Shown here: piece after piece, positions 1 to 52,899 of the stretch | Numbering within the stretch: the first letter of the stretch is position 1 | How the letters are laid out: every line of letters starts with the position of its first letter | Source: Lachnospiraceae bacterium | GTDB taxonomy: Bacteria; Bacillota; Clostridia; Lachnospirales; Lachnospiraceae | Direction of reading: 5' to 3' | Assembly: GCA_017551165.1 (NCBI GenBank) | Contig: JAFZMO010000039.1 | Coordinates: 1 to 52,899, forward strand | DNA: 52,899 nucleotides | Notes under the pieces: model-generated | Seen by the model: only the letters and a program-made list of their open reading frames with translations | Databases searched by the model: none | Told to the model about the DNA's origin: nothing | Made by a program: the position numbers and the translations under genes

Positions 1-2889
1 GGCGAGGTGACGCCCACCGCAGCGGCAACGCCCACCACGGCTGCGACGCCGACAGCGTCTCCGGTCCCGACCAAAGCGCCGGTTGAGATCCCCGCCGATC
101 TTCCGACGGTTTCCTTCGATCATATGAAGGAGCTCATCGACAAGGCGATCACGGACGAATCCGCGTACGTGTACGAGGAGAAGACAACATTTTCCGGAAC
201 TGACTCTTATCAGGGAAGATGCTATGATCTGGAGAGCTTCCCGAAGTTCTCGGCGCTCGACGCAGGCATCATCTACACGGAAGAGCTCTGCTACATGGAT
301 GAGAACTTCAACACGAAGAAGCAGGTGTTCACGCTCGTAAACGGCAAGCAGGCCACGCTCTACCGCACGGCATACGGCAATGCGCTGGATTACGCGGACA
401 CCGGTCGCGAGTACGATTTCAGCTATGACACAGATGTATCCGGCAACAAGATCAGCTACTATGAAGGCAGCGACGGCACCACGTACTCCTGCTTAGTCGA
501 AACCATATACGATACCCACAGCGTTTCCTACGAGGCGACGTATGACAAGAACAGCGATGCTCTGTTGAACTACCGCATGAAGACGACCTACTGCGACGAT
601 CAGGGCCGCATCACCGGCATTGTCATCTCGCGCTGCACCACTCCCGGTGAGGGATACGATAGCGTCGACACTGTGACTTACACCTACGACGAGTCCGGCA
701 ACCTGATCTCCAAGGTGGAAGGAACTAACGTGGATCCGAAGGCTTCCGTTTGGAAATACGCCTACAAGAAGGACAGCGACAACCGTCTGATCGGCTGGAC
801 CGTGGAGCGCACGACATCGAGCGGTGCATTTCTTCAGGAATACCTGCTCAAATACTACAGCGACGGCCGTGTCCTGATCTACAGCGAGGGCGAAAGACAC
901 GCCAACATGATCGTTCCGTCCGAGGCATTTCGCAAGAATCTGCTCTCCACCTCCAACCTGACGCCCGGTGAGGGAATCTTTGAGGAGACGGACACTCTGT
1001 GGAACGACACCGATCCCAAGTCCGAATTCTACGGTCTCCCGAGCCGCTCTGATTTCACTCCGAAGACCGGTTACCTGACGGTTTTCTCCGGCGAGATCGA
1101 CAAAGACATTCTGACGTCCGACACCTGGTTTTCCTCCACTGAGGAATACATGAAAAACAATCGGTGGTACTACCTGTTCGTCACATTTAACAAGGATGGA
1201 AAAATGACCGGCGAGTACTCCACCTCCGGCGGCGACGGATACTCTTACTCCTACACCTACGATTCCGACAACCGCCTGACCGCCACGGAATCCCTCAATT
1301 TCGACGAGCATGAGATCTGCAACTTCTCCTATGACAAGAAAGGCCGTCTGATCGAGCGCAGCACGGATTTCACGCTGAGCGACACCGGGTACGGCAGCGC
1401 CCACACCAAGACCTCGTACCATTACACATACGACGAGGCCGGCAACCTGACCGGCATGACCTCGGAGACCATCGACCTCGAGAACAAATCCGCAAAGATC
1501 AGCACGAGAGTTCTCACCGTCCTTCCTACATACCGCGCAGACCTGAATGTCGAGTACGGCGATCTCACCAAGTATTTTGACATGACAGCCGCACAGGTGA
1601 TCGCAAAGATCAACCAGCCCTACGAATACGTCTACTACGGCACCGAGTTCCTGTACGAGGACACCGGATTGATCCGCTTTAACGACGAGGTCTCCTTCCG
1701 GTACGAGGACTGCACGGAGAACTTCGCTGATTTCGACAAACACCAAAAAACGCTGATCATCGGCATCAACAACAACGGCCACGCAGCGCCTGCGAAGGAG
1801 ATCGGCAACAAGCTTAACTCCGCGATGACCTACTCCGAGATCAAGAAGATCATGGGAGACGCCCTGAGCGGAGAGGACAAGCTCAGCGATGAGTACGGCG
1901 TCTATATGGGCGCAGGCTGCCTCGGCGGTTACCGCTATGTATTCTGGTGGACACAGGATCCCACGAAAAATGATGTCGCACCGAGCGAGATCGATTTTTC
2001 CAAGGAAGGCATCGGCTGGCTGTTCAGCAACAGCATCAAGGAGTACATCAAGGCATCCCTGACCGAGAACGCGGGCTTCTGGAAGCTGGGCGAGCATCAG
2101 GAAACTCTGCGCAAGACGCTCGGCGACGCCTACAAGGACGTTCCGATTGCCACATACGATTATCTCGGATCCACCAAGTTCGACACCACACACATCGATC
2201 TGTACGAATCTGCCGTCTACGGGCATCCGGTACAGCTGAATGCGACCGACTATACCGTCGGCGATCCCGACCCGGAGATCTCGGTGTTCCAATATACCGT
2301 CATCGCGCGGTATCGCACTCCCGGCGGAACGCTCGAGACCTACACCTTCCCGCAGGATCCGATCGTGCTGGATGCCAACGGTAACAAGGTGACGGAACCG
2401 TTGTACTCCTCCTTCTCCCGCATTGTATGGTCTGACGATGTGCCCGACCGGTATCCGGTGCAGGATATCCGCAAAACGTGTAATATCCCTGCGGTCGAGA
2501 GCAGTACTAAAATTCTTGAGGCTACCGTAACCCGGTTCAGTGAGGACGGACTGAACGAGACCTTTACTACCGCTTACTATGTAAACGGCACAGAGCCCTC
2601 CCTCACCTGCCGCTATATCTGTGATCTCACCAACAACGGCGGACGTTCTGACTGGCACTTCTTCGGTCCGGACGGCAAGGAGATCACGGACCTGACCTCC
2701 TTCGAGAAGATCGAGGAAGGCACCGAGACTGTCGAATCGGCAGTCATCACCTGGGAGAAACGCAAGCTCAACGGCGCCGAGTACATCCTGCACATCAACT
2801 ATGCGCATGAATCCGGCTGGTCTGAGGTCTATGACTATCTGGTCGTGAACGGATGCATCATGCAGTATTTCTCGCAAAGTTCAAACTGA
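1..2889 (+). CDS. YD-repeat (RHS-like) secreted protein, 5' end outside window
   Basis: The frame is open from the first base, so the true start and any signal peptide or lipobox lie upstream; the GTG at 7 sits inside a Thr/Pro/Ala-rich linker (ATPTTAATPTASPVPTKAP) of the kind that tethers exported Lachnospiraceae proteins. The visible part is about 962 residues. Several segments match the YD/RHS pattern, for example YTYDESGNLISKVEG near residue 230, YTYDSDNRLTATE near 420, FSYDKKGRLIERS near 445 and YTYDEAGNLTGMTSE near 485. The C-terminal half is an unassigned beta-rich region. RHS/YD repeats form beta-strand shells in secreted or surface proteins. No RHS core motif and no recognisable C-terminal toxin domain is seen, so this is probably a surface or lipoprotein rather than a polymorphic toxin. 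It ends just before a strong terminator. Function unknown. Confidence 0.7.
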   Translation, partial: GEVTPTAAATPTTAATPTASPVPTKAPVEIPADLPTVSFDHMKELIDKAITDESAYVYEEKTTFSGTDSYQGRCYDLESFPKFSALDAGIIYTEELCYMDENFNTKKQVFTLVNGKQATLYRTAYGNALDYADTGREYDFSYDTDVSGNKISYYEGSDGTTYSCLVETIYDTHSVSYEATYDKNSDALLNYRMKTTYCDDQGRITGIVISRCTTPGEGYDSVDTVTYTYDESGNLISKVEGTNVDPKASVWKYAYKKDSDNRLIGWTVERTTSSGAFLQEYLLKYYSDGRVLIYSEGERHANMIVPSEAFRKNLLSTSNLTPGEGIFEETDTLWNDTDPKSEFYGLPSRSDFTPKTGYLTVFSGEIDKDILTSDTWFSSTEEYMKNNRWYYLFVTFNKDGKMTGEYSTSGGDGYSYSYTYDSDNRLTATESLNFDEHEICNFSYDKKGRLIERSTDFTLSDTGYGSAHTKTSYHYTYDEAGNLTGMTSETIDLENKSAKISTRVLTVLPTYRADLNVEYGDLTKYFDMTAAQVIAKINQPYEYVYYGTEFLYEDTGLIRFNDEVSFRYEDCTENFADFDKHQKTLIIGINNNGHAAPAKEIGNKLNSAMTYSEIKKIMGDALSGEDKLSDEYGVYMGAGCLGGYRYVFWWTQDPTKNDVAPSEIDFSKEGIGWLFSNSIKEYIKASLTENAGFWKLGEHQETLRKTLGDAYKDVPIATYDYLGSTKFDTTHIDLYESAVYGHPVQLNATDYTVGDPDPEISVFQYTVIARYRTPGGTLETYTFPQDPIVLDANGNKVTEPLYSSFSRIVWSDDVPDRYPVQDIRKTCNIPAVESSTKILEATVTRFSEDGLNETFTTAYYVNGTEPSLTCRYICDLTNNGGRSDWHFFGPDGKEITDLTSFEKIEEGTETVESAVITWEKRKLNGAEYILHINYAHESGWSEVYDYLVVNGCIMQYFSQSSN

Positions 2890-2903
2890 AAGAGCATTTC
2901 CGG

Positions 2904-2936
2904 CAGCCGGGGTAAAATTGCCCCGGCTGTTTTTTC
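2904..2936 (+). terminator. Rho-independent terminator after the YD-repeat gene
   Basis: A perfect 9-bp stem, CAGCCGGGG with CCCCGGCTG, encloses an 8-nt loop and is followed by six T. It starts 15 nt after the stop codon and separates the YD-repeat gene from the corA promoter. Confidence 0.9.
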
Positions 2937-2943
2937 GTTTTCG

Positions 2944-2973
2944 TTGCAAAACAGGGCTCTCCGAGAGTATAAT
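2944..2973 (+). promoter_or_regulatory. Housekeeping promoter of corA
   Basis: TTGCAA (2944-2949) and TATAAT (2968-2973) are separated by 18 bp. A GAAAGGA ribosome-binding site follows before the ATG at 3012. Confidence 0.75.
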
Positions 2974-3011
2974 AGCAGCATCAACCGCCCCGCGGCAGAA
3001 AGGACGCCCGA

Positions 3012-3929
3012 ATGTATTACCAGATCAAAGACACGCTGACGACATGCAGTGCAGAAGATATCACCAACCGCAAGATTCCCTATGTGGCCAACATTTCCCT
3101 CGAGGAGTTCGAGGAGAAGAAGTCGCTCTTCGACATGGGCATCGACCTCGATCTCGAGTCGGAGTCCGATGACATCACGGACATTCAGGTGAACTACGAC
3201 TCCCTGACCGGATGCTTCGCGATCCCGGACTTCACGAGCATCGAAAGCCCGCCGCACACGTTTCTCTTCGCGATCGATGAGCGCGGTATCGTCATCCTCG
3301 ACGATGACGGCACGGCACAGAATATCCTCGACGGCATTCAGGCGAGCAAGCGCTGGAAGTTTCCTTCGCTCGAGCGCTTTATCTACGATTTTCTCGAGGG
3401 TATCCTTGCGGGCGATCTGATCTCTCTCGAAAAATACGAGAAGGAGATGGACCAGATGGAAGATCGCATCCTCGCCGGCAATCTCGACGGCGTCATGGAG
3501 CGCCTCGTTGACATCCGCAGCGAGCTCCTCGATCTGCGCACGCACTACGAGCAGCTGATCGATCTCGGCCAGGAGCTGGAGGAAAATGAGAATGCCTTCT
3601 TCTCCTCCAAGAACCTGCGTTTCTTCCGCCTCTTCATCGAGCGCACGGAGCGTCTGCAGTCCAACGTGACCGCCCTCCGCGAGCACACAATGCAGATCCG
3701 CGACCTGTACCACTCGCAGCTGGAGCTTCGCCAGAACCGCAACATGTCCTTCCTGACGATCATCGCCACGATCTTCATGCCGCTCACGCTGATCACCGGC
3801 TGGTACGGCATGAACTTCACACACATGCCGGAGCTCGACTCCCCGTATGCGTACCCGATCGTCATGGGCGTATGCCTGCTGATCGTCACGACCAGCCTGA
3901 TCATCCTCAAGAAGAAAAAATGGTTCTGA
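3012..3929 (+). CDS. corA: CorA-family magnesium/divalent cation transporter
   Basis: A 305-residue protein that should form a pentameric inner-membrane channel for Mg2+ (possibly Co2+ or Ni2+). The first 240 or so residues form the soluble acidic and coiled-coil funnel, including a long charged helix around 125-230. Two C-terminal membrane helices follow at about 246-268 and 280-300, and the family signature GMN is present as GWYGMNF between them. The protein ends in the basic tail KKKKWF, consistent with a cytoplasmic C-terminus. Length and order match the family. The ATG is preceded by AGGA with good spacing. It has its own promoter and terminator, so it is probably monocistronic. The substrate is inferred from the family. 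Confidence 0.93.
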   Translation: MYYQIKDTLTTCSAEDITNRKIPYVANISLEEFEEKKSLFDMGIDLDLESESDDITDIQVNYDSLTGCFAIPDFTSIESPPHTFLFAIDERGIVILDDDGTAQNILDGIQASKRWKFPSLERFIYDFLEGILAGDLISLEKYEKEMDQMEDRILAGNLDGVMERLVDIRSELLDLRTHYEQLIDLGQELEENENAFFSSKNLRFFRLFIERTERLQSNVTALREHTMQIRDLYHSQLELRQNRNMSFLTIIATIFMPLTLITGWYGMNFTHMPELDSPYAYPIVMGVCLLIVTTSLIILKKKKWF

Positions 3930-3947
3930 GACAGTGCAATGTCCGGG

Positions 3948-3980
3948 GGCGCAGGAAGAACCTGCGCCTCTTTCTTTCAT
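3948..3980 (+). terminator. Terminator after corA
   Basis: GGCGCAGG and CCTGCGCC form an 8-bp stem with the loop AAGAA, followed by the T-rich tract TCTTTCTTTCATTTT. Confidence 0.85.
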
Positions 3981-4023
3981 TTTCCGCGGAAAATGTGCAA
4001 CCGCCGCGAGCATACGGCGAATC
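3979..4023 (+). promoter_or_regulatory. Possible ECF-type promoter with an upstream palindrome
   Basis: TGCAACC (3996-4002) followed after 15 bp by CGAATC (4018-4023) resembles the -35 AAC and -10 CGA/CGT elements of ECF-controlled promoters. It lies 39 nt upstream of the sigma gene start, as expected for autoregulation. Immediately upstream, ATTTTCCGCGGAAAAT (3979-3994) is a perfect 16-bp palindrome made of two copies of the dispersed window motif. No good housekeeping promoter is visible here. Assignment is by pattern only. Confidence 0.4.
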
Positions 4024-4061
4024 TTAGTGTGAGGGAAGAAATACTCAAAGGGGGCAAATGT

Positions 4062-4622
4062 ATGACTGACGCAGAGATTGTTGATCTGTATTTTCGTCGT
4101 GATGAGCAAGCCATACGGGAGACGATGGCGCGTTACCAGCGGTATCTGATGAAGATTGCGATGCAGCTTTTGGGGGATGAGCAAGATGCTGAGGAGTGCG
4201 TGAACGACGCCTATCTTACCGCCTGGAACTCCATGCCGGACTACCGTCCGGAGGTTCTCTCCGCCTACCTTGCCAAGATCACGCGCCAGAAGGCGATCGA
4301 TCGGCTGCGCTATCAGCAGCGGCAGAAGCGTCAAGGCACGGCCTACGCGATTTCCCTGGAAGAGCTCGGCGATGTCATCGAGGATGAGAGCTCCGCTGTG
4401 TCGGAGCCGGATGACGGCCGCCTGAAGGAGGCTATAGCCCGGTTTCTCAAGGATCTCCCGCCGGATGCCCGACATCTGTTTCTCGGAAGGTATTTCTATT
4501 TTGATTCTCTCAAGGAGACGGCCGCGTACTGCGGTATGAGCGAATCGAAGGCCAAGAGTATGCTACACCGCGCGCGCCGGAAACTGAAGAAGTTTCTGAA
4601 GAAGGAGGACTTGTATGAATAG
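4062..4622 (+). CDS. ECF-type RNA polymerase sigma factor
   Basis: A 186-residue sigma-70-family factor of the extracytoplasmic group. Region 2 covers about residues 5-85, including QDAEECVNDAYLTAWNSMPDYRP, the 2.1-2.2 core-binding signature, and AYLAKITRQKAIDRLRYQQR (2.3-2.4). Region 4 covers about 125-180, with the helix-turn-helix LKETAAYCGMSESKAKSMLHRARRKLKKFL. The frame is open further upstream, but the ATG at 4062 is preferred because AAAGGGGGC precedes it and homology begins there. It overlaps the following gene by 8 nt, so the two are translationally coupled, as usual for sigma/anti-sigma pairs. It probably responds to envelope stress. The signal is unknown. Confidence 0.92.
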   Translation: MTDAEIVDLYFRRDEQAIRETMARYQRYLMKIAMQLLGDEQDAEECVNDAYLTAWNSMPDYRPEVLSAYLAKITRQKAIDRLRYQQRQKRQGTAYAISLEELGDVIEDESSAVSEPDDGRLKEAIARFLKDLPPDARHLFLGRYFYFDSLKETAAYCGMSESKAKSMLHRARRKLKKFLKKEDLYE

Positions 4623-5586: not shown

Positions 5587-5625
5587 TCTCGATCATCGGC
5601 TTACAAAGTTACCAGCCAATAAAAG

Positions 5626-5663
5626 AACAGGGCGGGTGCTCATCACACGGCACCCGCCCTGTT
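5626..5663. terminator. Bidirectional terminator between convergent genes
   Basis: AACAGGGCGGGTGC (5626-5639) pairs perfectly with GCACCCGCCCTGTT (5650-5663) around a 10-nt loop. It is followed by TTCTT on the plus strand and TTCTTTT on the minus strand, so it can end both the anti-sigma and the DUF4015 transcripts. Confidence 0.88.
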
Positions 5664-5688
5664 TCTTATGTATTCACGAAATCCCGTA

Positions 5689-7023: not shown

Positions 7024-7098
7024 CCAATAAACCTCTCCCGCCTATGGCGGCCTGTTCCGCTCGCGCGGTCCTCCCCACACGATCCCGCTCGGGACCTC

Positions 7099-8471: not shown

Positions 8472-8534
8472 CAAGAGGAAGTGGGCGAGTTGCGCGGACT
8501 CCCGAAAACCGCGCGGAAAGAAGTAAGTATTACC

Positions 8535-11315
8535 ATGAATTACAGTCATTACAATGTTGTGCGTAAACAAAAGTATCTGAAATCTCCCGTGCGACGATTT
8601 TACAGCATGATGCGGATCTGGATGTTCCGCATTGCTCTCGTCGCTATGGTCTTTGTGCTCGTCGTCGGCTGTTTTGCCGCCTACGGTGCTTATCAGGGTG
8701 CGGTATCGACCGCTCCGAGCATCGACGGTATCGATGTCCATCCGGACCGTTTCGCCTCCAAGATCTACTATCCCGACAACACGCTGATCGTCGAGCTGGT
8801 GGGCGCCGGAACCAATCAGATCTATGCGAAGATCGACAAGATCCCGCAGAAGGTCCGCGACGCCTTTGTCGCGATGGAGGACGAGCGTTTCTATCAGCAC
8901 TCCGGTATTGACGTGCGCGGTATCTTCCGTGCTGCATTTTCCGTTGTAAAGGTCCGCGGTCTGAAGTACGGTGCAAGTACGATCACGCAGCAGCTCCTGA
9001 AGAACCAGGTGTTCGGCGGCGGTAACGAGCGAAGCTCGGTCGACAAGGCCATCCGTAAGATCCAGGAGCAGTACCTCGCAGTACAGCTTGAGGACAGAAT
9101 GGACAAGGAGACCATCCTGGAGTACTATCTCAACTCCATCAACCTCGGCAACGGTGCGTACGGTATCGCCGACGCCGCTCTCCGCTACTTCGGCAAGGAC
9201 GTGTCCGAGCTCACGATCTCGGAGGCTGCGGTCATCGCGCCGATCGCGTACTCTCCGTCCTACATGAACCCTCTCCGCAACGAGTCGTCGGAGAAGGAGA
9301 ACCGCAGACGTCGCGAGGACTGTCTCAACAACATGCTCAACGCAGGTCTCTGCACGCAGGAGGAATACGACGAGGCCATCGCCGACACCGAGGACGTCTA
9401 CATCCGCCTGAAGCAGTACGCCGAGATTGAGAAGGCGTCCAGCGTGGAACAGCAGTACTCCTATTTCGTTGACGAGCTGATCGAGCAGCTGCTTGAGGAT
9501 CTCCAGAAGAAGGGCTACTCCTCCGTCGAGGCGAGCAATCTTCTGTACACCGGCGGTCTCAAGATCTACACGACGCAGGACCGTCAGATCCAGGGCATCA
9601 TGGACTCCTATTTTACGAATGAGGAGTATTTTCCGAAACTGAAATCCGGCTCGTACTACGAGCTTACAAAGAACTATGCGCTGTCCCTCGTCGGACAGGG
9701 CAAGGACGCTCCGGCGGTACACTACCACCTGAACGACCTTCTGAAGTATTACGCCAAGTACAAGGATTCCTCGAAGAACTACTACCACAAGGAAGGCAGC
9801 ACCGGCATCAGCCAGTACACGACCAACAAGGACCTGATGAACACCATGATCGATGAATTCGTCGAGGCCATGAAGAAGGAATACGAGGAGAAGCACCCCG
9901 GCGTGGATTACATTCCGATGGAGACACGCTCCTTCACGATCCAACCGCAGTGCGCCATGGTCATCATGGACCAGTCGACCGGCTGCGTGGTCGCACAGTA
10001 CGGCGGCCGCGGCGAGAAAGTCGGCAACCGTGTCCTGAACCGCGCGAGCAACACCTACCGTCAGGCGGGTTCGACCTTCAAGGTTCTCGCTTCGTTCCTT
10101 CCCGCGATCGATGTGTGCGGATACACGCTCGCAAGCTGCTTTGACGACTGCTATTTCGTGTACCCGAACAGCGACAAGGAAGTTATCAACTGGTATAAGC
10201 CGAGGTTCAAGGGCCTCTCCACCATCCGTCAGGGTATCTACGATTCCCGTAACGTCGTTGCCTGCCAGTGCATGCTCGTGGTTACGCCGGAGATCGGCGT
10301 CGCGACGCTGCAGAAGCTCGGCTTCTCCCGCATCGACACAGACGGCAGTGACGGCTTCTCCGACTACAACGTATCTATCGCACTCGGCGGTCTCACCAAC
10401 GGCTGCTCCGTGCTGGAGATGACGGCCGGCTATGCGGCGATCGCGAACAACGGCGTCTACATCAAGCCCCGGTACTACACGACGGTGTACGACCACGACA
10501 ACAACATTTTGCTCGACAACAAGATCGAGTCCAAGCAGGTCATGAAGGCTTCCACCGCATACCTGCTCACGGACGCCATGGTGGACACCTGTAAGATCGG
10601 TACCGGTACCACATGTAACTTCAAGAAGCTGACGAACATTCCGGTGGCCGGCAAGACCGGTACCGCTCATGACAACGTCGACCTGTGGTTCGCCGGATTC
10701 ACGCCGTTCTATACGTCCGCGATCTGGAGCGGTTGCGACAACAACCTCGAACAGACCAACAATCAATACTATCGATATCTGTGGCGCTACATTATGGAGG
10801 AGGTCCACGAGGTGAAGGGTCTCGCGTACGATGCCGATGGCAACAAGCTCGAGATCGCTTTCGAACAGCCTGCCTCCATCGTCAAGGCCAAGATCTGTAC
10901 CAAGTGCGGCAAGCTTGCGGTGTCCGGTCTCTGTGACGCATACGCCGGCGGCAACTGCATCAAGGAAGAACTCTTCGAAAACGGTACGGTTCCGTTCGAG
11001 ACCTGCACCTGCCACGTTCGCGTTCAGGTGTGTGCGGAGTCCGGACAGGCTGCCGGCCCGTACTGCCCGTCCACGATCACCCGTGTTCTCCTTCGTAAGA
11101 ACGAGACCGCAGAGGCACTCGCGCACGGCGGAACCGACGACACCAAGTACATCGTGAGCGGCTCGGCACAGACCGCCTGCACGATCCACGGCGCCGGCTG
11201 GACGCCTCCGGAAGGCGGTGACGGCACGGATGGCGGAGATGGCGGCACAACGCCCGACGGCGGCGCAGGAGGCACTCCCGACGGCGGTGCCGGTGGCGGC
11301 GCAACCACAGACTAG
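8535..11315 (+). CDS. Class A penicillin-binding protein (PBP1A type)
   Basis: A 926-residue bifunctional peptidoglycan synthase. A cytoplasmic N-terminus and one membrane anchor (about residues 30-54) precede a GT51 glycosyltransferase domain with EDERFYQHSGID (catalytic Glu115) and GASTITQQLLKN, which polymerises lipid II. The transpeptidase domain has all three active-site motifs: STFK (Ser513, Lys516), SRN (571-573) and KTGT (707-710). After it comes a Cys-rich segment (ICTKCGK, GLCDAYAGGNC, CTCH, GPYCPST, about 790-850) typical of clostridial PBP1A, and a Gly/Thr/Asp tail. The ATG at 8535 is chosen because the membrane anchor and family start fit it; upstream codons overlap the promoter leader. 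A DUF6472 gene follows 9 nt downstream. Confidence 0.93.
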   Translation: MNYSHYNVVRKQKYLKSPVRRFYSMMRIWMFRIALVAMVFVLVVGCFAAYGAYQGAVSTAPSIDGIDVHPDRFASKIYYPDNTLIVELVGAGTNQIYAKIDKIPQKVRDAFVAMEDERFYQHSGIDVRGIFRAAFSVVKVRGLKYGASTITQQLLKNQVFGGGNERSSVDKAIRKIQEQYLAVQLEDRMDKETILEYYLNSINLGNGAYGIADAALRYFGKDVSELTISEAAVIAPIAYSPSYMNPLRNESSEKENRRRREDCLNNMLNAGLCTQEEYDEAIADTEDVYIRLKQYAEIEKASSVEQQYSYFVDELIEQLLEDLQKKGYSSVEASNLLYTGGLKIYTTQDRQIQGIMDSYFTNEEYFPKLKSGSYYELTKNYALSLVGQGKDAPAVHYHLNDLLKYYAKYKDSSKNYYHKEGSTGISQYTTNKDLMNTMIDEFVEAMKKEYEEKHPGVDYIPMETRSFTIQPQCAMVIMDQSTGCVVAQYGGRGEKVGNRVLNRASNTYRQAGSTFKVLASFLPAIDVCGYTLASCFDDCYFVYPNSDKEVINWYKPRFKGLSTIRQGIYDSRNVVACQCMLVVTPEIGVATLQKLGFSRIDTDGSDGFSDYNVSIALGGLTNGCSVLEMTAGYAAIANNGVYIKPRYYTTVYDHDNNILLDNKIESKQVMKASTAYLLTDAMVDTCKIGTGTTCNFKKLTNIPVAGKTGTAHDNVDLWFAGFTPFYTSAIWSGCDNNLEQTNNQYYRYLWRYIMEEVHEVKGLAYDADGNKLEIAFEQPASIVKAKICTKCGKLAVSGLCDAYAGGNCIKEELFENGTVPFETCTCHVRVQVCAESGQAAGPYCPSTITRVLLRKNETAEALAHGGTDDTKYIVSGSAQTACTIHGAGWTPPEGGDGTDGGDGGTTPDGGAGGTPDGGAGGGATTD

Positions 11316-16155: not shown

Positions 16156-16171
16156 TCACTTACGGTACAAT
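16143..16171 (+). promoter_or_regulatory. Promoter of glnA
   Basis: TTGCAC (16143-16148) and TACAAT (16166-16171) are 17 bp apart. AGGAGG precedes the ATG at 16234. The leader of about 55 nt is too short for a riboswitch. Confidence 0.75.
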
Positions 16172-16233
16172 GAAAGAACACACAGATCCGCCCGCGCGGC
16201 TCGTCTGTAATCTATATTGAGGAGGTTCCAACC

Positions 16234-17664
16234 ATGCAACTGAATACCGTTTCGGATGTACAGCTCTTTTGCAAGGAGCACGACATCGCCATGATCGATT
16301 TCAAGATGACTGATATTGACGGCCGCTGGCGCCATATCTCCATTCCGGTGGCGCGCTTTGACGAGAGCACTCTCAAATACGGGATCGGCTTCGACGGCTC
16401 CAACTACGGGTTCGCGCCGGTGGAGAACAGCGACATGGTGTTCATCCCCGATCTTGCGACAGCCGCCATCGATCCGTTCTGCGAGGTGCCGACCCTCTCC
16501 ATGTCCGGCGATGCGATGATCATCGACTCGCCCGCCAACCGTCCGTTTGACCAGTATCCGCGCAACGTGATCCGCGCCGCGGTCGACTATATGAGATCCA
16601 CAGGGATCGCCGACACGATGATCATCGGTCCCGAGTTCGAATTCCACGTGTTTGACAACGTCTGGTATGACGTCAAGTCCAACGGCGTATCCTATGAGGT
16701 CGATACCAGTCAGGCCGAGTGGAACAGCAACTCCGAGGACAGCAAGGGCTATCAGGTCAACCCGAAACGCGGTTACCACATCTCCTCTCCGAACGATATC
16801 ACGCAGGACACGCGCAGCCGCATGTGCATCCTGATGGAGCAGATGGGCGTTCCTGTCAAATACCACCATCACGAGGTCGGCGGCTCCGGCCAGCTGGAGA
16901 TTGAGGTCGAGCTCGGTGAGGTCTGCGATATGGCCGACCGGACCATGATCACCAAGTACGTGATCAAGAACCAGGCACTTCGCGAGGGCAAGACCGCAAC
17001 GTTCATGCCCAAGCCGATCGCCTCCGAGGCGGGCAACGGAATGCATGTGCACATGCTGCTCCGCAAGGACGGAAAGCCTGTATTTTACGACGAAAACGGC
17101 TACGCCGGACTGAGCGAGACCGCACACTGGTTCATGGGCGGACTCCTGAAGCACGCCGCTTCCCTGTGTGCCATCACAAACCCCTCGACGAACTCCTTCA
17201 AGCGGCTCGTGCCCGGATTTGAGGCGCCCGTCACGATCGGTTATGCGACGGCCAACCGCAGCGCCGTGATCCGCATCCCGGCTTACGCCAAATCCCCGGA
17301 CGCCAAGCGCTTCGAGCTTCGGAACCCCGACGCGACCTGCAATCCTTATTTTGCGTATGCCGCCATTCTCATGGCCGGTCTCGACGGCATCAAAAACAAG
17401 ATCGACCCGCACGCCAGCGGCTGGGGTCCCTACGATTTCAACCTGTACTCTCTGTCGGATGAGGAGAAGGCGAAGATTGACGGCCTGCCGACCTCGCTCT
17501 TTGAGGCTCTGGACGCACTTCGCGCCGACCACGACTACCTGACCGCAGGCGGCGTGTTCCCCGAGCGCCTGATCAACATCTGGATCGCCCGCAAGGAGAA
17601 GGAGGCACTCGAGATCAACAAGATCCCTCACCCTGCGGAGTTCGCCGCATATTTCGACCTGTAA
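16234..17664 (+). CDS. glnA: Type I glutamine synthetase
   Basis: A 476-residue enzyme that makes glutamine from glutamate, ammonia and ATP as a cytoplasmic dodecamer. The N-terminal beta-grasp domain (FKMTDIDGRWRH, GFDGSNYGF) is followed by the catalytic domain with IIGPEFEFHVFD, GQLEIEVELG, the signature GNGMHVHMLL (metal-binding His and Glu region), NPSTNSFKRLVPGFEAP, YATANRSAVIRIP and AKRFELRNPDATCNPYF. It is of the length of GSI enzymes. A tyrosine lies in NLYSLSDEE, where adenylylated enzymes carry the modified residue, but no adenylyltransferase is in the window. Strong AGGAGG site, own promoter with a direct repeat, and a terminator after it: a single-gene unit. Confidence 0.95.
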   Translation: MQLNTVSDVQLFCKEHDIAMIDFKMTDIDGRWRHISIPVARFDESTLKYGIGFDGSNYGFAPVENSDMVFIPDLATAAIDPFCEVPTLSMSGDAMIIDSPANRPFDQYPRNVIRAAVDYMRSTGIADTMIIGPEFEFHVFDNVWYDVKSNGVSYEVDTSQAEWNSNSEDSKGYQVNPKRGYHISSPNDITQDTRSRMCILMEQMGVPVKYHHHEVGGSGQLEIEVELGEVCDMADRTMITKYVIKNQALREGKTATFMPKPIASEAGNGMHVHMLLRKDGKPVFYDENGYAGLSETAHWFMGGLLKHAASLCAITNPSTNSFKRLVPGFEAPVTIGYATANRSAVIRIPAYAKSPDAKRFELRNPDATCNPYFAYAAILMAGLDGIKNKIDPHASGWGPYDFNLYSLSDEEKAKIDGLPTSLFEALDALRADHDYLTAGGVFPERLINIWIARKEKEALEINKIPHPAEFAAYFDL

Positions 17665-22547: not shown

Positions 22548-22665
22548 GCCGCTTTCGCCTCTCGCCGAAAAATTCTCTCAAACGCAACAACGCGGTTTCT
22601 TCCAACCGCATTGTCCGCTAAGCTGCCGTCAGGCAGCCTTTATTTTACGCAAAATGAGACACTTG

Positions 22666-24319: not shown

Positions 24320-24348
24320 AGAATACTTCATTTTGCGGAAAATTACAA
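24320..24348 (-). promoter_or_regulatory. Promoter of the phosphoribosyltransferase/esterase operon
   Basis: On the minus strand TTGTAA (24348-24343) and TATTCT (24325-24320) are 17 bp apart. The spacer contains two overlapping copies of the dispersed motif (ATTTTGCGGAAAAT, 24330-24343). Confidence 0.65.
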
Positions 24349-34039: not shown

Positions 34040-35401
34040 ATGCGTGAGATCACTTTAAGCAACAAAACCTTCAAACTCGAGCAGGATCCGTACATCTATC
34101 AGCTTCAGGATGTCGCGGAGCCCGAACTGTTCCGCGAGATCTATCCGTACACCGAGACGCCGAAGATCCCGTTCAACTATCGCCGCGTCCCGGAGAACAT
34201 GCCGCGGGACATCTACCTGACCGACACGTCCTTCCGCGACGGCCAGCAGTCGCGCGCGCCGTACACGACAGAGCAGATGGTCCACATCTACAAGCTTCTC
34301 CACAAGCTCGGCGGCCCGAACGGCATGATCCGCCAGACGGAGTTCTTCGTCTACTCGGAGAAGGACCGCGCGGCGGCGGAAGCGTGCCTCGAGCTCGGGT
34401 ATGAGTTCCCGGAGATCACGACCTGGATCCGTGCCTCGAAGAAGGACTTCGAGCTCGCGAGAGCCATCGGCATCAAGGAGACCGGCATTCTGGTCAGCTG
34501 CTCCGACTATCACATTTTTCGAAAAATGGGCCTGACCCGCCGTCAGGCAATGGACAAATACATCGGCATCGTCTCGGACTGCATCGAGGCCGGCCTGCGC
34601 CCGCGCTGCCATTTTGAGGACATCACGAGGGCGGATTTCTACGGCTTCGTCGTGCCGTTTGCCAACAAGCTCATGGAGCTGTCGCGGCAGAGCGGCATTC
34701 CCGTGAAGATCCGCGCCTGCGACACGATGGGCTACGGCGTTCCGTACCCCGGTGCCGCACTGCCCCGAAGCGTGTCGGGCATCATTTACGGCCTGCAGCA
34801 TCACGCGGACGTTCCCTCGGAGATGCTGGAGTGGCACGGCCACAACGACTTCTACAAGGGCGTTGTCAACGCCGCGACGGCATGGATGTACGGTGCCTCC
34901 GCGGTCAACTGCTCCCTGCTCGGGATCGGCGAGCGCACGGGCAACATCCCGCTCGAGGCCATGGTCTTCGAGTACGCGTCGCTCCGCGGCACCCTCAACG
35001 GGATGGACACCCGCGCGATCACGGAGATCGCCGAGTACCTCGAGAAGGAGACCGGCTACGAGATCCCGCCGATGACGCCGTTCGTCGGCCGCAGCTTCAA
35101 CCTCACGCGCGCCGGCATCCACGCCGACGGCATGATGAAGGACCCCGAGATCTACAATATCTTCGACACCGAGGCTCTTCTCGGGCGCGCCCCGAAGGTC
35201 GCGATCTCCGCTACCTCGGGCGTTGCGGGAGTCGCCTTCCGCGTCAACGAGTACCGTAACACGATCGGGGAAGCTCCGCTGCCGAAGACCGCACCGGTCG
35301 TGCAGCGCATCTACGAGTGGGTATGCGCCGAGTACGACGGCGGGCGCATCACGGTGATCACCGACGAGGAGCTGATCGCCAAGTACCACGAATTCTTATG
35401 A
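34040..35401 (+). CDS. 2-isopropylmalate synthase family, candidate Re-type citrate synthase
   Basis: A 453-residue DRE-TIM metallolyase. It carries DTSFRDGQQ (62-70) and WHGHNDF (His266, His268, Asp270), the metal and catalytic residues of acetyl-CoA aldol enzymes such as isopropylmalate, homocitrate and Re-citrate synthases. The C-terminal part (FVGRSFNLTRAGIHADG, then a regulatory-like stretch) is short and lacks the usual LeuA allosteric domain. As I recall, the order NYRxVPxNxPxDIYxTDTSFRDGQQSRxPYT is that of the clostridial Re-citrate synthase group, which makes citrate from oxaloacetate and acetyl-CoA. It is not with leu genes, which supports this over LeuA. Divergent from a LysR gene. 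A strong terminator follows. Codons 159-163 hold an exceptional AT run at a dispersed motif. Confidence 0.8.
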   Translation: MREITLSNKTFKLEQDPYIYQLQDVAEPELFREIYPYTETPKIPFNYRRVPENMPRDIYLTDTSFRDGQQSRAPYTTEQMVHIYKLLHKLGGPNGMIRQTEFFVYSEKDRAAAEACLELGYEFPEITTWIRASKKDFELARAIGIKETGILVSCSDYHIFRKMGLTRRQAMDKYIGIVSDCIEAGLRPRCHFEDITRADFYGFVVPFANKLMELSRQSGIPVKIRACDTMGYGVPYPGAALPRSVSGIIYGLQHHADVPSEMLEWHGHNDFYKGVVNAATAWMYGASAVNCSLLGIGERTGNIPLEAMVFEYASLRGTLNGMDTRAITEIAEYLEKETGYEIPPMTPFVGRSFNLTRAGIHADGMMKDPEIYNIFDTEALLGRAPKVAISATSGVAGVAFRVNEYRNTIGEAPLPKTAPVVQRIYEWVCAEYDGGRITVITDEELIAKYHEFL

Positions 35402-46201: not shown

Positions 46202-46228
46202 ATCCCTTCTCCTTTCGAAAGCCTCGCG

Positions 46229-46858: not shown

Positions 46859-46864
46859 ATCGCC

Positions 46865-46893
46865 ATCATATCAGCCTTTTCCGCTTAAATCAA
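46865..46893 (-). promoter_or_regulatory. Promoter of the XRE regulator, possibly giving a leaderless mRNA
   Basis: On the minus strand TTGATT (46893-46888) and TATGAT (46870-46865) are 17 bp apart. Only 6 nt (GGCGAT) separate the -10 from the ATG, which puts transcription start at or next to the start codon. Confidence 0.65.
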
Positions 46894-46997
46894 GGGCTTT
46901 GCGGCAAAATTCCCGCTGTGGTGGAGTGCTCTCTCGCTGTGGTTCGGAGGCGTTTTTTAACAGTAGAGAGGGTAATCCAACATTATCTTTACTTATT

Positions 46998-47038
46998 CTC
47001 CCCTGCATTGGAAAATGTACCTGACAATTTCAGGGGAG
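46998..47038 (+). promoter_or_regulatory. Hairpin that could hide the ribosome-binding site of the GT8 gene
   Basis: CTCCCCTG (46998-47005) pairs perfectly with CAGGGGAG (47031-47038), which includes the Shine-Dalgarno sequence of the gene at 47048. The 25-nt loop holds a smaller hairpin, CCTGA-CAATT-TCAGG, that competes for the same bases. Confidence 0.5.
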
Positions 47039-47047
47039 GCCTGCCAC

Positions 47048-48791: not shown

Positions 48792-49288
48792 ATCATATCA
48801 TCCGTAAAATCCTGCTTATCCTTGCTGTTCATGGCTCGCATCTGCTCCCGGAACTGCGCGGAGAGTTTCTCCATTTTCCGAGCCCGGATCACCACGATCA
48901 GCGGGATCCAGGATGCGAGAGCCGCAACGCCGATGATTCCGAAGAACACCCACTTCCACAGTGAGTCTGCCGGATAGAATACCTCGTAGGGGTCGGACGC
49001 GAGCACGTAGGCCTGAACCGTCTCGCCGGCGACCACTCGCTTGTTCAGGATCGCTTTGGCGGTCACCCGCTTGCCGCTCTCATTTTCATAGACAACCGAC
49101 ACCTGCTGCCGCCCGTTGACGGTGAGGACCGTCTGAACGAAGCAGTCCGTCAGCACGCCCTTCTCGCGATACTCCTTCTCCTTGGCGTCAGCATGCAGTG
49201 CCAGAAAATAAAAGACGATCGGGAGCACCACCCCGACTCCGATCCCCAGCAGGATCGCATACAAAAGACTCTTGTTATCTGTTGCCAT
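48779..49288 (-). CDS. Membrane protein with two helices (DUF3592-like)
   Basis: A 169-residue protein with helices at about residues 10-30 (AILLGIGVGVVLPIVFYFLAL) and 113-135 (WVFFGIIGVAALASWIPLIVV), an intervening beta-type domain (GVLTDCFVQTVLTVNGRQQVS and onwards) and a charged C-terminus. This layout resembles DUF3592 proteins, but the match is not firm. The ATG at 49288 has AGAAGGGGG upstream. It follows the methyltransferase gene by 37 nt on the same strand and overlaps the PlsC-type gene end-to-end. Function unknown. Confidence 0.6.
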   Translation of the reverse strand: MATDNKSLLYAILLGIGVGVVLPIVFYFLALHADAKEKEYREKGVLTDCFVQTVLTVNGRQQVSVVYENESGKRVTAKAILNKRVVAGETVQAYVLASDPYEVFYPADSLWKWVFFGIIGVAALASWIPLIVVIRARKMEKLSAQFREQMRAMNSKDKQDFTDDMIYRG

Positions 49289-49325
49289 AGTGTAACCCCC
49301 TTCTGCCTTTCTTTCCGTACAGTTG

Positions 49326-50111
49326 TTACAGCTTCCTCGCCTTGATGCAGAACGAGATCGGCAGCATCTTGGCCTTTCGGGTCTTCGGGTCCGCATCCTC
49401 GCCGGCCTCCTGTGAAGCACGGTCGCACTCCTCCACGAGCTGCTCGATCGCGAACCCCGCTTTCGCCAGCGCGTTCACATACGTCGATATCTTCCGGTTG
49501 CTCAGCACGATCTCGCTGTCATGCACCGGCATCGTAAAATACGTCTCGTCGTAATAGCTCTTCGTCATGAAGAGCTTGCCGTCCTCGAAGATATCCTTTC
49601 GCTCATCGCACGTCCATCCCACACAGTAATTCAGCGTGTGGTGCCAGCTGAAGATAAAGATACCGTCTTTCTTCAGGTACGACGCGATCTTGTCAAACGT
49701 CCCCTGCAGATCGGTCGTCCAGCCGATCCCGTAGATCGAGTACACAAAGTCAAAGTACTCCTTCGGCACGTCCAGCTCGTCCTCCATCCTTGCGCAAAGT
49801 AACTTGGCCGTGCAGTTATTTTCCGAGAGAAGCTTCGCGGCGTTGTCCAGCTGCTTTTGGGACAGATCGACTCCCCACAGTTCCCCTGCGCCTCTCTTCG
49901 CGTTGTACACAAGCGAATGACCGCTGCCGCAACAGATCTCCAGCATCCGCTTGCCTCGTACGTCACCGAACAGGTGCAGATCCTCCTCCGTCGGGAAGCG
50001 CACGCCGTACTCCGGCAGTGCCGTGGTCCCGAACCACAGATCGGCGTGATCATTCCAATAGGTCTTATTTTTCTCGATTATTTCGTTGTCCTGCATATTG
50101 CTCCGATTCAT
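49326..50111 (-). CDS. SAM-dependent methyltransferase (class I)
   Basis: A 261-residue enzyme. The SAM-binding motif I is KRMLEICCGSGHSLVYNAK (about residues 53-71), motif II is VDLSQKQLDNAAKLL, and FDFVYSIYGIGWTTDLQGTFDK is the post-II segment. The fold is that of the small-molecule methyltransferases (Methyltransf_11/25 type). It overlaps the RpiA gene by 4 nt (ATGA). An alternative start at 50096 (CGGAG upstream) would give 256 residues. Substrate unknown; neighbours are RpiA and a two-domain kinase. Confidence 0.88.
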   Translation of the reverse strand: MNRSNMQDNEIIEKNKTYWNDHADLWFGTTALPEYGVRFPTEEDLHLFGDVRGKRMLEICCGSGHSLVYNAKRGAGELWGVDLSQKQLDNAAKLLSENNCTAKLLCARMEDELDVPKEYFDFVYSIYGIGWTTDLQGTFDKIASYLKKDGIFIFSWHHTLNYCVGWTCDERKDIFEDGKLFMTKSYYDETYFTMPVHDSEIVLSNRKISTYVNALAKAGFAIEQLVEECDRASQEAGEDADPKTRKAKMLPISFCIKARKL

Positions 50112-50824
50112 CTTTCGATCACGCTCCCGTCAGCATCCACAGTGAAAACGATCGGCTTATTTTTCGTAAAGAAGCCATTGTCCACAACGCCGACGATACC
50201 GTTGATCTTATCTTCCATCACAGCCGGATCGACCGGCTCCTTCCACACGATATCCAAAAGCTGATTGCCGTTGTCCGTGATGACCGGGCCGCATTTTCTG
50301 ACGCCCTGACGAAGGACGCAGTCCGCGCCGAGCGCGTTCAACGCCGCAATTACCGGCACCCTCGCCTCCCCGATGATCTCCACGGGAAGACGGAATCCTG
50401 TTCCCAGGGTATCAACGATCTTCGAGGCGTCGGCCACGATCACAAACGTCGTGGAATTGTATGCCGCGATCTTTTCGCGCAGCAATGCCGCACCGCCGCC
50501 CTTGATCACGTTGTTGCAGGGATCCACCTCGTCAGCCCCGTCGATCGTGAGATCCAGGTGTCCGCCGATGATCCTGTCGTTCATGGAATACACCGGGATC
50601 CCCAGCTCCTCACACAGATTTTGCGTCCCGAAACTGGTGACGACAGCCTTGATGTCCGCAAGCGTCCCGTCATCGATCCTTTGCGCAAGACGCCTCACGG
50701 CCGGCTCCGCCGTGGAGCCGGTGCCGAGCCCGATCTTCATCCCGGAAAATATCTTCCCCTGCCCGATCAGCGTGTCGATCGCAACCGATGCGACCAGATT
50801 TTTCTGTTCATTTTGCGAAATCAT
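50108..50824 (-). CDS. rpiA: Ribose-5-phosphate isomerase A
   Basis: A 238-residue enzyme that interconverts ribose 5-phosphate and ribulose 5-phosphate in the pentose phosphate pathway. Family motifs: KIGLGTGSTAEPAVRRL, TSFGTQNLCEELGIP, DLTIDGADEVDP and IKGGGAALLREKI, with the catalytic Asp and Glu in DGADE. The ATG at 50824 is preferred because GGGGGA lies 7 nt upstream; ATG at 50830 is a second option that overlaps the kinase stop. It sits between the kinase and methyltransferase genes with no gap. In a window with xylan enzymes it would help pentose use. Confidence 0.93.
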   Translation of the reverse strand: MISQNEQKNLVASVAIDTLIGQGKIFSGMKIGLGTGSTAEPAVRRLAQRIDDGTLADIKAVVTSFGTQNLCEELGIPVYSMNDRIIGGHLDLTIDGADEVDPCNNVIKGGGAALLREKIAAYNSTTFVIVADASKIVDTLGTGFRLPVEIIGEARVPVIAALNALGADCVLRQGVRKCGPVITDNGNQLLDIVWKEPVDPAVMEDKINGIVGVVDNGFFTKNKPIVFTVDADGSVIER

Positions 50825-50826
50825 AG

Positions 50827-52653
50827 TCATTCCCCCGTTTTCGCATCTTCCGAACCGGCGAAGTCCGCCGTTTCCTCCCACTTGTTCAGCCAGTACAGCT
50901 GCCAGTCGATGAACTGCTCGTTGATGCAGTCGATGCCGTGGATCTCCAGGATCGTCGCCTGCAGCTGGTAATGCCGGATCGCCACCCAGTCGGAAAATGA
51001 TCCTTCCTCCCGGAGGCTGAGCTCATGATGCTTTCTATATCCCGTCAGGAAATCCCGATACACCTGCTTCGTCTCGTCGATGTCCTCCGGCTTTAGGTTG
51101 AAATAGTCCGTCATGTCGCACATGACCATGATGTCAAACATCCGCGGTGCCCTGCAGACGGTGTCAAAATCGACGAGATAAATCTTCCCGTCCGCGGTCC
51201 GGATCAGATTCCCCCGGTGCAGATCGCCGTGGCAGATCCCCTGCGGAAGATCCTTCACCCTCTCCCACAGCCGCTCGCCGAGCTCCTCGTATTCCGCAAG
51301 CCTCGGATAGTTCTTCCTTCGAAGGCAGTCGAGATACCGCCCCACGAAGAAATCCTTCCCGTGCGAAACAGGCGCTGTCGGATAGCGGTCCATCAACCGG
51401 TGAAGCCTTCCGACCAGCTCTCCGACTTCGGCCGCAGACGCGGTCATCTCCGGCTCGTCGCCTTCGAGGAATTCCATGAGCACGACCAGTTTCTTCTCGC
51501 CGTTGATGACCTCCTCGAGGATCGCATCACCGTCTTTCGTCAGGATGGTCTTCGGCACCGGAAAATCATTTTCCTCCAGATACCGCATGACTGCAGCAGA
51601 CTGCCTTGCGGTCTCCGCGAACGCATCCCCGATCACCTTCAAAAGATACTTTGCATCAGCGGTCACGATATAGGTTTGACCGCCGCCGTCCCGCAGCAGC
51701 TCGACCGACGCATCGGCGATCCCGTAGTGTGCCGCCAGGATCTCCATAAGCCGCCGATTTTGCAGTCGGTTCCACAGCTCTTCCTTCTGTGCGATGCCGA
51801 AATTCAATATCTTCCAAAGGGAATCCACGGCATACGGACCATACGTCTGCATATACGAGATGTGCATCTGCTCTGCGCCGCAGAACACCAGGTCATACTC
51901 TTCCCGGGAGACGCCGTCATCCCCGTAGTAGCCCCTCAGGAAGCTCTCCGCCAGGTCGAAGCGATAGCTCATCTCCTCAGTGTCGTGATTAAAGTCAACA
52001 AATTGCATGATAAACGGCCAGCCGAGATCCAGGAACCGGCTGCCGATGCCGGAATCGTCCAGATCGATGAAGATCACCTTTCCGTCGCTTCGGATCATCG
52101 CGTTGTGCGGCCCAAGGTCCGTATGAACGAAGCACTGATCAAGCTTCTCAAAATCGGGGATCGCGTCGAGGATCGCATCGAATTCCTTCGCAAAATCACG
52201 GTCGCGGAACCACTCGTAATAGCGCTGCTTGCTCTGCGTGAACGGAGTCCTGATCCCGTACCCCTGCAGCGAGTGCAACTCCCTTGCAGCCTGTCCGAGC
52301 CGGAATTCATCCTCAGGCGTCTCGTCCATCCGGCGCCCTTCGACGTACTCCATCAGGTAAAACCAGTATCCCTGCTCGCTGATGTAGTCTTCCCCGGCCT
52401 TCGTCCGGCAGATCGCCGGCGCAAGGCCCTTTTCATTGCCCAAAAAGAGATGCGCCTGTACGTTGCTGCGGATCGTCTCCTCCGGCATATCGCACGAATA
52501 CCCTTTCAGAACATAGCATCCGGCGTCTGCCTTGATCCGGTAGACCGGCCTCTCCTCACTCTCCTTAAGGCAGGCTTCCACGCACGGATCCCCCAGCTCC
52601 CATCGCGTCAGAACATCCGGGACCCTGCACTTGTCCAACGTATTTTCCAACAA
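50827..52653 (-). CDS. Tandem aminoglycoside-phosphotransferase-fold kinase
   Basis: A 608-residue protein made of two complete APH-type kinase folds in tandem. The first has a likely ATP lysine (Lys50), the loop HTDLGPHNAM (His177, Asp179, Asn184) and FIDLDD (Asp197, Asp199). The second has Lys339, HGDLHRGNLI (His475, Asp477, Asn482) and LVDFDT (Asp495, Asp497). Both sets of catalytic residues are kept, so both halves may be active. Such kinases act on small hydroxyl compounds; the substrates are unknown, and resistance is not implied. The gene ends 2 nt before rpiA and starts 13 nt after the GH10 gene, suggesting a sugar or nucleoside substrate. Cytoplasmic. Confidence 0.82.
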   Translation of the reverse strand: MLENTLDKCRVPDVLTRWELGDPCVEACLKESEERPVYRIKADAGCYVLKGYSCDMPEETIRSNVQAHLFLGNEKGLAPAICRTKAGEDYISEQGYWFYLMEYVEGRRMDETPEDEFRLGQAARELHSLQGYGIRTPFTQSKQRYYEWFRDRDFAKEFDAILDAIPDFEKLDQCFVHTDLGPHNAMIRSDGKVIFIDLDDSGIGSRFLDLGWPFIMQFVDFNHDTEEMSYRFDLAESFLRGYYGDDGVSREEYDLVFCGAEQMHISYMQTYGPYAVDSLWKILNFGIAQKEELWNRLQNRRLMEILAAHYGIADASVELLRDGGGQTYIVTADAKYLLKVIGDAFAETARQSAAVMRYLEENDFPVPKTILTKDGDAILEEVINGEKKLVVLMEFLEGDEPEMTASAAEVGELVGRLHRLMDRYPTAPVSHGKDFFVGRYLDCLRRKNYPRLAEYEELGERLWERVKDLPQGICHGDLHRGNLIRTADGKIYLVDFDTVCRAPRMFDIMVMCDMTDYFNLKPEDIDETKQVYRDFLTGYRKHHELSLREEGSFSDWVAIRHYQLQATILEIHGIDCINEQFIDWQLYWLNKWEETADFAGSEDAKTGE

Positions 52654-52666
52654 TCCATCCCCCTGT

Positions 52667-52899
52667 TTATCGGTCGTATTTTTCGGAAAATGCCTCGATG
52701 TACTTCATGGTAAACGGCTTCAGCTCGCCGTCATCGTCCACCAGCGATGCATCCTCCTCCTGCAGCCAGGAGACCGTATCGTTCAGGCCCCAGACCGTGA
52801 ACGCCTCGATATCGTACCTGCGTGCGACCTCCGCAAAATTGCGGAATATGGCTTTCTGCGTCTCCTTCGTGCTGTGGTTGCTCACGTCGAATTCCGTGA
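52667..52899 (-). CDS. GH10 endo-1,4-beta-xylanase, C-terminal part only
   Basis: The frame is open to the window edge, so the start lies outside. The visible 77 residues begin TEFDVSNHSTKETQ: this is the GH10 signature around the catalytic nucleophile, the Glu of TEFD, followed by AIFRNFAEVARRYDIEAFTVWGLND, TVSWL and the end of the barrel (FTMKYIEAFSEKYDR). The enzyme cleaves internal beta-1,4 bonds of xylan. No domain follows the barrel, so any binding module would be N-terminal. It is upstream of the double kinase gene by 13 nt and is probably the first visible gene of that operon. Confidence 0.88.
   Translation of the reverse strand, partial: TEFDVSNHSTKETQKAIFRNFAEVARRYDIEAFTVWGLNDTVSWLQEEDASLVDDDGELKPFTMKYIEAFSEKYDR

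Follow-up and report, generated by a model that had tools for sequence, protein, structure and literature searches.

An octamer iterated throughout one clade of a Lachnospiraceae genus, tentatively read as a DNA-uptake word

The contig JAFZMO010000039.1 of a Lachnospiraceae bacterium (assembly GCA_017551165.1) was analysed over its full length of 52,899 nucleotides, referred to below as the window. It carries, among others, a PBP1A-type gene, glnA and an HMGL-like gene, and it is strewn, within its genes as well as between them, with copies of one octamer, ATTTTNCG, hereafter the word. Exact counting on both strands gives 78 copies (35 forward and 43 reverse), compared with 3 copies of the reversed pattern that served as control and with expectations of 3.8 and 11.9 under Markov models of order 0 and order 3, respectively. 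According to our own open reading frame (ORF) caller, 61 of these copies are coding, 16 are intergenic and 1 lies at an edge. When codons are shuffled within the window genes (300 shuffles), 6.5 coding copies are left on average and never more than 14, as opposed to the 61 observed. An earlier note on this DNA, made by eye, had estimated 75-80 copies where a zero-order model expects about 4, and the exact figures agree with it. The same holds for its pentamer control, as NCG follows 78 (45%) of the 173 ATTTT/AAAAT pentamers in the window.

The features of the window are listed in Table 1. The four full palindromes and the abutting inverted pair lie exactly where the earlier note had placed them, and the three codon phases that it had read from individual copies are correct. 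In the ORF at 34040, the run ATT TTT CGA AAA ATG indeed starts with codon 159, and TAT TTT GCG is present in glnA; the gene that had been called citrate-synthase-like was misnamed, its Pfam match being HMGL-like instead. The four palindromes account for 8 of the 78 copies, and the perfect palindrome is not the iterated unit. The PBP1A-type gene was used as a probe for the matching locus in relatives, and was matched in all 15 same-genus genomes searched.

Table 1. Copies of the word, its palindromic arrangements and genes carrying it in the window.
Feature	Positions	Strand	Remarks
ATTTTNCG / CGNAAAAT, 78 copies	189..52839	both strands	about 1 per 680 bp; first copy at 189 (+), last at 52832 (-)
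Abutting inverted pair ATTTTCCGCGGAAAAT	3979..3994		
Full palindrome ATTTTACGCAAAAT	22642..22655		
Full palindrome ATTTTGCGGAAAAT	24330..24343		
Full palindrome ATTTTTCGAAAAAT	34514..34527		codons 159-163 of the HMGL-like gene
Full palindrome ATTTTTCGGAAAAT	52678..52691		
PBP1A-type gene	8481..11315	+	three copies; Pfam Transgly and Transpeptidase
glnA	16234..17664	+	two copies: 17082 in codon phase 3, 17348 in codon phase 2; Pfam Gln-synt_C
HMGL-like gene	34040..35401	+	palindrome inside; Pfam PF00682, 3.8e-32

The abundance of the word extends over the whole genome. The draft genome to which the window belongs (G000; 2,543,225 bases in 160 contigs) contains 2,749 copies (1,359 forward and 1,390 reverse), compared with 170 copies of the reversed control (85 on either strand). 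In 303 kb of this genome, 359 copies were observed where Markov models of orders 0 to 5 predict 21 to 140; at order 6 the prediction rises to 287, as the 7-mers of such a model contain most of the word by themselves. Together with 21 relatives, G000 forms a set of 22 species of one genus. None of the 22 genomes yielded a 16S sequence, and their inferred class, Clostridia, comes from the 16S of a single genome in the same order, assessed by eye and with 16S probes. Ten of these (G000, G002, G003, G005, G009, G010, G011, G014, G019 and G020) have 2,533-3,534 copies, which is 9.6-16.2 times the control, and G007, with 1,871 copies and a control ratio of 5.4, is the eleventh member of what is called the high clade here. 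The remaining 11 species, the low species, have 572-1,193 copies and ratios of 1.5-4.5. In a midpoint-rooted tree of ParB proteins, the 11 high or intermediate species are set apart by a branch whose support is 100/100, and abundance of ATTTTNCG, at about one copy per kb, is thus confined to one clade of the genus. Outside the genus, ratios range from 0.27 to 2.67; the genomes searched there were 15 from the remaining genera of the family and, for each of 24 further families in the order, a single one. None of 397 further genomes sampled from the phylum comes near the abundance in G000; the highest ratios there, read by eye off the table, are around 4 and belong to genomes with fewer than 150 copies. 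As for 11-mers, CATTTTCCGAA is the most frequent in G000 and CATTTTCCGCG in G002.

The over-representation acts at the level of DNA and not at the level of codons. After within-gene synonymous shuffling, 28.6 ± 5.6 coding copies are expected in the 303 kb of G000 (224 genes by our own caller) vs 251 observed, and 86.2 ± 8.9 in 443 kb of G002 vs 518 observed. The reversed pattern stays close to its shuffled expectation in both genomes (10 vs 10.4 and 38 vs 28.4, respectively). In two low species the word itself is near expectation (22 vs 14.8 in G001, 34 vs 27.0 in G006), and the reversed control is above it there too (14 vs 7.3 and 29 vs 16.7). Coding copies fill all six classes of codon phase and orientation, and they are spread about evenly across all tenths of gene length. 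One-base variants of the word are over-represented at least twofold in G000 only at position 8 (A 5.4-fold, T 4.1-fold, C 2.1-fold), position 5 (G 3.0-fold, A 2.0-fold) and position 7 (A 2.2-fold). Besides, A is favoured at positions 10 and 13 of the flank that follows CG, with frequencies of 0.50 and 0.41 in G000 and of 0.37 and 0.29 in G002. Forcing of amino acids by the word was considered and set aside: the codons that hold the word are slightly more conserved than others (0.764 vs 0.719), and thus give no sign that it forces amino-acid replacements.

Moreover, the word is conserved in place. Orthologous ORFs were aligned by codons (1,294 of 1,952 pairs were kept once overlapping ORFs had been removed), and the expectation was obtained by shuffling the synonymous codons of the partner. 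Three groups were compared: eight of the 11 high species (G000, G002, G003, G005, G009, G010, G011 and G014), five low species (G001, G004, G008, G013 and G016, the last with 33 kb of data) and a third group of G006, G012 and G017. Within the group of eight, 561 copies were aligned and 207 of them proved intact vs 18.5 expected, counts that are not independent because each pair is counted both ways and sites recur across partners. Fourfold sites agree at 0.536 among the same species, which means that synonymous sites are far diverged. The excess conservation of the word is 0.347, compared with a median of 0.035 for 77 controls with permuted letters, which were kept out of about 150 after those with fewer than 30 sites had been dropped. 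Pooled, these controls are intact at 980 of 4,739 sites vs 699.8 expected, and a single one of them, TAGCTNTT with 39 sites, lies above the word. From the high species to G007, 19 of 86 copies are intact (3.7 expected); from the high species to the five low species, 5 of 134 (6.9 expected).

A second form of the word, ATTTGNCG, has G at position 5 where ATTTTNCG has T. In G001 the strongest words in the codon-shuffle comparison are CATTTGCC and ATTTGCCG, and coding ATTTGNCG reaches 3.4-7.2 times its shuffled expectation in G001, G004, G008 and G016 (31, 23, 14 and 13 copies, respectively), vs 1.5-2.6 times for the T form in the same species. Counted over whole genomes, the G form occurs at 1.1-4.2 times the control across the genus, with the largest counts in G007 (1,573), G016 (1,304) and G013 (1,226). 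Within the high clade, G007 has both forms in about equal number, and in G006 and G017 neither form stands out. The G form is also conserved in place: 94 of 262 copies are intact among the high species (5.7 expected), 32 of 77 among the five low species (1.6 expected; for the T form there, 2 of 22 vs 0.4) and 27 of 91 from the five low species to the high ones (1.5 expected). Toward G006, G012 and G017 no copy of it is intact (0 of 44 and 0 of 28). From this conservation pattern, the G form looks older than the split of the groups and the T form looks like a strong addition on one branch.

Copies of the word have no consistent strand orientation. On two G002 contigs of 178 and 205 kb with a majority of minus-strand genes, forward and reverse copies number 111/136 and 154/167, and between codirectional genes, copies in the same and the opposite orientation number 33/23 in G000 and 36/43 in G002. 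Spacing is close to random, with a coefficient of variation of 0.93 in G000 and 1.10 in G002. Density per kb is higher in noncoding than in coding DNA (1.68 vs 1.03 in G000, 1.69 vs 1.40 in G002), where some of the noncoding sequence may consist of missed genes given the use of our own ORF caller; between codirectional genes it reaches 2.9 and 2.0, respectively. The octamer itself is non-palindromic and most copies are single. When two copies are close, they are mostly inverted: at 6-30 bp there are 29 inverted vs 1 direct pairs among 359 copies in G000 and 46 vs 11 among 1,193 in G002, and at 7-30 bp 15 vs 1 and 30 vs 11. Beyond 60 bp, both kinds are about equally common. A role as terminator was rejected for the short inverted pairs, as most of those at 7-60 bp are intragenic (11 of 21 in G000, 42 of 65 in G002). 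In 84 ten-kb windows of G002, the copy count rises with guanine plus cytosine (GC) content (Spearman 0.43, p 5.5e-5) though the word is AT-rich, as if it were rarer in acquired DNA. G002 also has five motif-poor gaps of more than 4.5 kb vs 2.4 expected; protein starts revealed no clear mobile element in them, protein families not having been searched there.

Genes for the uptake of DNA are present in the genus. A ComEC match was found in 20 of the 22 genomes and missed in the fragmented drafts G020 and G021. In 10 of the 11 high species comEC is one uninterrupted frame, G020 being the exception. In two low species, G015 and G016, the gene is in pieces (loci L267-L272), which an assembly error may explain. 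ATPases of the T2SSE family occur in all 22 genomes, with a full-length PilB-type match in 17. The most complete picture of a type IV pilus comes from G002, where a Pfam-supported run reads pilB-pilT-pilC-pilin-pilin-pilD-pilM-minor-pilin (L323:6149-17717); the two adjacent pilins in this operon of a Clostridia-type genus resemble each other. At the matching locus of G007, G011, G014, G004 and G017, pilin-like ORFs are recognised by their N-terminal motif only, and further pilin-like ORFs lie downstream of the pilus locus in relatives.

A few observations stand beside the word. Long overlapping ORFs on opposite strands are frequent in the window (e.g., 7-2889 forward and 493-2877 reverse), and a 491-codon ORF runs antisense to glnA at 16156-17631. 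The closest homologues of glnA (16234-17664) among the matches listed come mostly from clostridial metagenome-assembled genomes and also from one of a Fibrobacter and from spirochaete ones, at 73% identity at most, where near records are possibly absent from the scan. When the window was compared with the loci of these homologues, only one further stretch appeared as a long DNA match. Judging from these comparisons, glnA may have been acquired horizontally. Codon shuffling further brought up words that coding DNA avoids. In G002 these are of the ACGTC type (GACGTC 16 vs 212 shuffled, AACGTC 12 vs 183; loci L103-L107 and L123-L140), CGATCG is avoided in both G002 (106 vs 419) and G001 (10 vs 87), and CTTATC/GATAAG (32 vs 132) and CTGGGC (40 vs 139) are under-represented in G000. 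The avoidance of ACGTC-type words and CGATCG is possibly restriction avoidance.

By analogy with Neisseriaceae, ATTTTNCG may serve for self-recognition in the manner of a DNA uptake sequence, a reading that is placed first among those weighed here, tentatively and with slightly more doubt than belief. DNA bearing the word would be bound by a receptor with sequence selectivity, for which a minor pilin of the type IV pilus is a possible candidate; retraction of the pilus and the ComEC channel would import the bound DNA, after which homologous recombination would install it. Over a long time, such biased uptake would let copies accumulate on either strand, between genes and at synonymous sites. 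One clade would read ATTTTNCG and tolerate G at position 5, and part of the remaining genus would read the weaker ATTTGNCG in a dialect-like manner, so that the G form might be a dialect of the same system. The distribution of the two forms suggests dialects that may track the species tree, as in Neisseriaceae, whose dialects follow the core-genome tree according to the text excerpted from PMC3630211.

Known uptake words, as portrayed in excerpts of PMC1939737, occur on both strands without orientation bias, are in excess outside genes, are unevenly spaced, are accompanied by over-represented near-variants and have about a tenth of their copies in inverted repeats; they are not palindromes. 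The word resembles the DNA uptake sequences of Neisseriaceae and the uptake signal sequences of Pasteurellaceae in its short core, its thousands of copies on both strands, the lack of a consistent orientation, the noncoding excess, the share of copies in inverted pairs and the over-represented one-base variants, next to the pilus and ComEC genes in the genome and possibly the dialects. It differs from them in its host, a member of a Clostridia-type genus, in its excess of overlapping palindromes and in the mixed evidence for dialects; uptake is argued here by analogy. The mixed dialect evidence lowers the probability of an uptake word, and the excess of short inverted pairs raises it.

Several results weigh against an uptake word. 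First, the pilus locus of G000 covers only pilB and a portion of pilT before its contig ends, and ComEC and pilus genes are also found in low species, including G006 and G017, so that their presence does not discriminate between the groups and does not by itself explain abundance. Second, the convergent intergenic stretches of G002 are without enrichment (7 copies in 5.3 kb), and coding copies in G000 lean to the coding strand by 166 vs 85, which is about 10 and 7.5 times the shuffled expectation. Third, the overlapping palindrome ATTTTNCGNAAAAT is in excess, with 13 copies vs 1.0 expected in 303 kb of G000 and 15 vs 4.2 in 863 kb of G002. These palindromes and the short inverted pairs, which in G002 are mostly intragenic, also suit a dimeric binder inside the cell. 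Fourth, the dialects are blurred. In a seven-species low clade the whole-genome control ratios are alike for both forms (T 2.4-4.5, G 2.0-4.0), and the preference for G was read from four small codon-shuffle samples (13-31 copies each) along with conservation. Switching from T to G in place between the groups was rejected, as 0 of 134 T copies appear as the G form in the five low species. Of 60 T copies followed from the high species to G006, G012 and G017, 15 are intact (6.5 expected), as are 15 of 44 followed the other way (2.3 expected), which means that some T sites are kept in this group as well. Lastly, no reader protein was found among the candidates tested, and we know of no transformation in these uncultured organisms.

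Next in rank, and unlikely though well ahead of the remaining readings, is a binding site of an abundant dimeric nucleoid or chromosome-organising protein, for which ATTTTNCG would be the half-site and ATTTTNCGNAAAAT the palindrome, its sites being kept by selection and its specificity at position 5 having shifted between clades. Such a protein would account for the palindromes, which exceed the expectation for independent halves in both genomes, for the preference for inverted over direct pairs at 7-30 bp and for the lean of the flank to A, which is weaker in G002. The near-uniform density along genes and the long-kept copies fit a structural site as well. On the other side, no candidate protein was found, spacing is uneven and lone half-sites make up most copies. 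The half-site skeleton xTTTyNC|G resembles parS (GTTTCAC|G, as seen at parB loci) and also the Noc site ATTTCCC|GGGAAAT, a string for which no open-licence paper was found. Unlike Noc and ParB sites, the word occurs as thousands of lone half-sites. A strong ParB match exists in all 22 species, with an exact parS at the parB locus in 19 and a near match in the other three. Because the exact sites include those of all 11 high species, whose canonical ParB has parS at its own gene, canonical ParB was rejected as the reader. The parS site is itself part of the parB reading frame, where it is translated as VSRET in 20 of 21 aligned proteins (loci L217-L238). A second ParB is over the cut-off in five of the 11 high species (G005, G007, G009, G011 and G014) and in the low species G015, G017 and G018; a second ParB or Noc was likewise rejected as the reader, none being over the cut-off in G000, G002, G003, G010, G019 and G020.

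A mechanism like that of the highly iterated palindrome HIP1, in which an orphan DNA methyltransferase modifies the word and modification-dependent repair creates and preserves copies, is improbable. The abundance, the conservation, the partial palindromy and the different favoured word in relatives do recall HIP1 and the alternate HIPs of PMC4390886, as far as its excerpted text describes them, and the word shares with these a high iteration across a whole clade and scarcity or replacement in relatives. However, HIPs are, according to the same excerpts, GC-rich palindromes that are generally accompanied by methyltransferases of matching specificity, whereas the word is AT-rich and mostly a lone half. 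No methyltransferase family is common to all 11 high species among PF01555, PF00145 and PF02384, the families searched (PF02086, PF07669 and MmeI-type enzymes were not). The N6/N4 methyltransferase PF01555 is over the cut-off in 8 of the 22 genus genomes, with one weak tail match in G000, the C5 methylase PF00145 in 4 and N6_Mtase PF02384 in 9, mostly weakly. Four high species, namely G002 (listed as 100% complete), G007, G009 and G010, have none over the cut-off in these three families.

Still more improbable is a signal of the Chi kind, read by AddAB or RecBCD, or a replication-oriented one such as those that orient FtsK. Like Chi, the word is a very frequent, clade-specific octamer that is over-represented in coding DNA, and the coding-strand lean in G000 would suit an oriented signal. 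In contrast to Chi sites, it has no consistent strand orientation: intergenic copies are without lean, the two orientations are nearly equal on the two long G002 contigs in spite of their mostly minus-strand genes, and the inverted pairs and palindromes that are favoured here are needless for an oriented signal. An artefact of composition or codons (poly-T/A contexts, codon pair bias or contamination of the draft) is scarcely credible, for although G000 is a draft with 7.7% contamination and GC content varies among species, it is contradicted by the codon shuffling and the reversed control, by copies on both strands and between genes, and by the recurrence of the signal across the clade's other species.

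The uptake word thus stands ahead of the nucleoid-protein site, and that in turn ahead of the methylation-linked palindrome. The earlier note had proposed a DNA-level signature of the genome, resembling HIP1 or an uptake sequence and perhaps the site of a methyltransferase, nucleoid protein or repair system, to be compared with Markov models, codon-shuffled genes and synonymous positions in alignments. Each of these comparisons came out in favour of a word that acts at the DNA level and throughout the genome; among the interpretations offered, uptake appears to fit best by analogy, the HIP1 or methyltransferase interpretation is weakened, and a nucleoid or repair protein is conceivable. The statement that no description was known for this group agrees with the open-licence literature, in which no paper with the word itself was found and, among the matches listed, none that describes an uptake word or over-represented word for Clostridia. 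A survey of spaced motifs has no ATTTT word in its excerpted text (PMC5217627).

With more reserve than the uptake reading itself, it may be proposed that this is the first DNA-uptake, or mate-recognition, word from beyond the Neisseriaceae and Pasteurellaceae. In this proposal, which leans on dialects, the type IV pilus of a Clostridia-type genus would select the DNA of its kin by means of CATTTTCCG, and the clades of the genus would have one-base dialects that limit gene exchange between them. If the uptake signal is true, sequence-selective DNA uptake exists in Clostridia-type bacteria and its origin can be placed on one branch of the genus, and the 22 species would provide a ready-made gradient of word strength with which to search for the receptor. 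If the word is a nucleoid-protein site instead, it would represent a very large set of conserved sites with an owner still to be named. Either way, some force yet to be explained keeps about 0.8% of the bases of the genome in place (7 fixed bases in each of 2,749 copies, out of 2.54 Mb).

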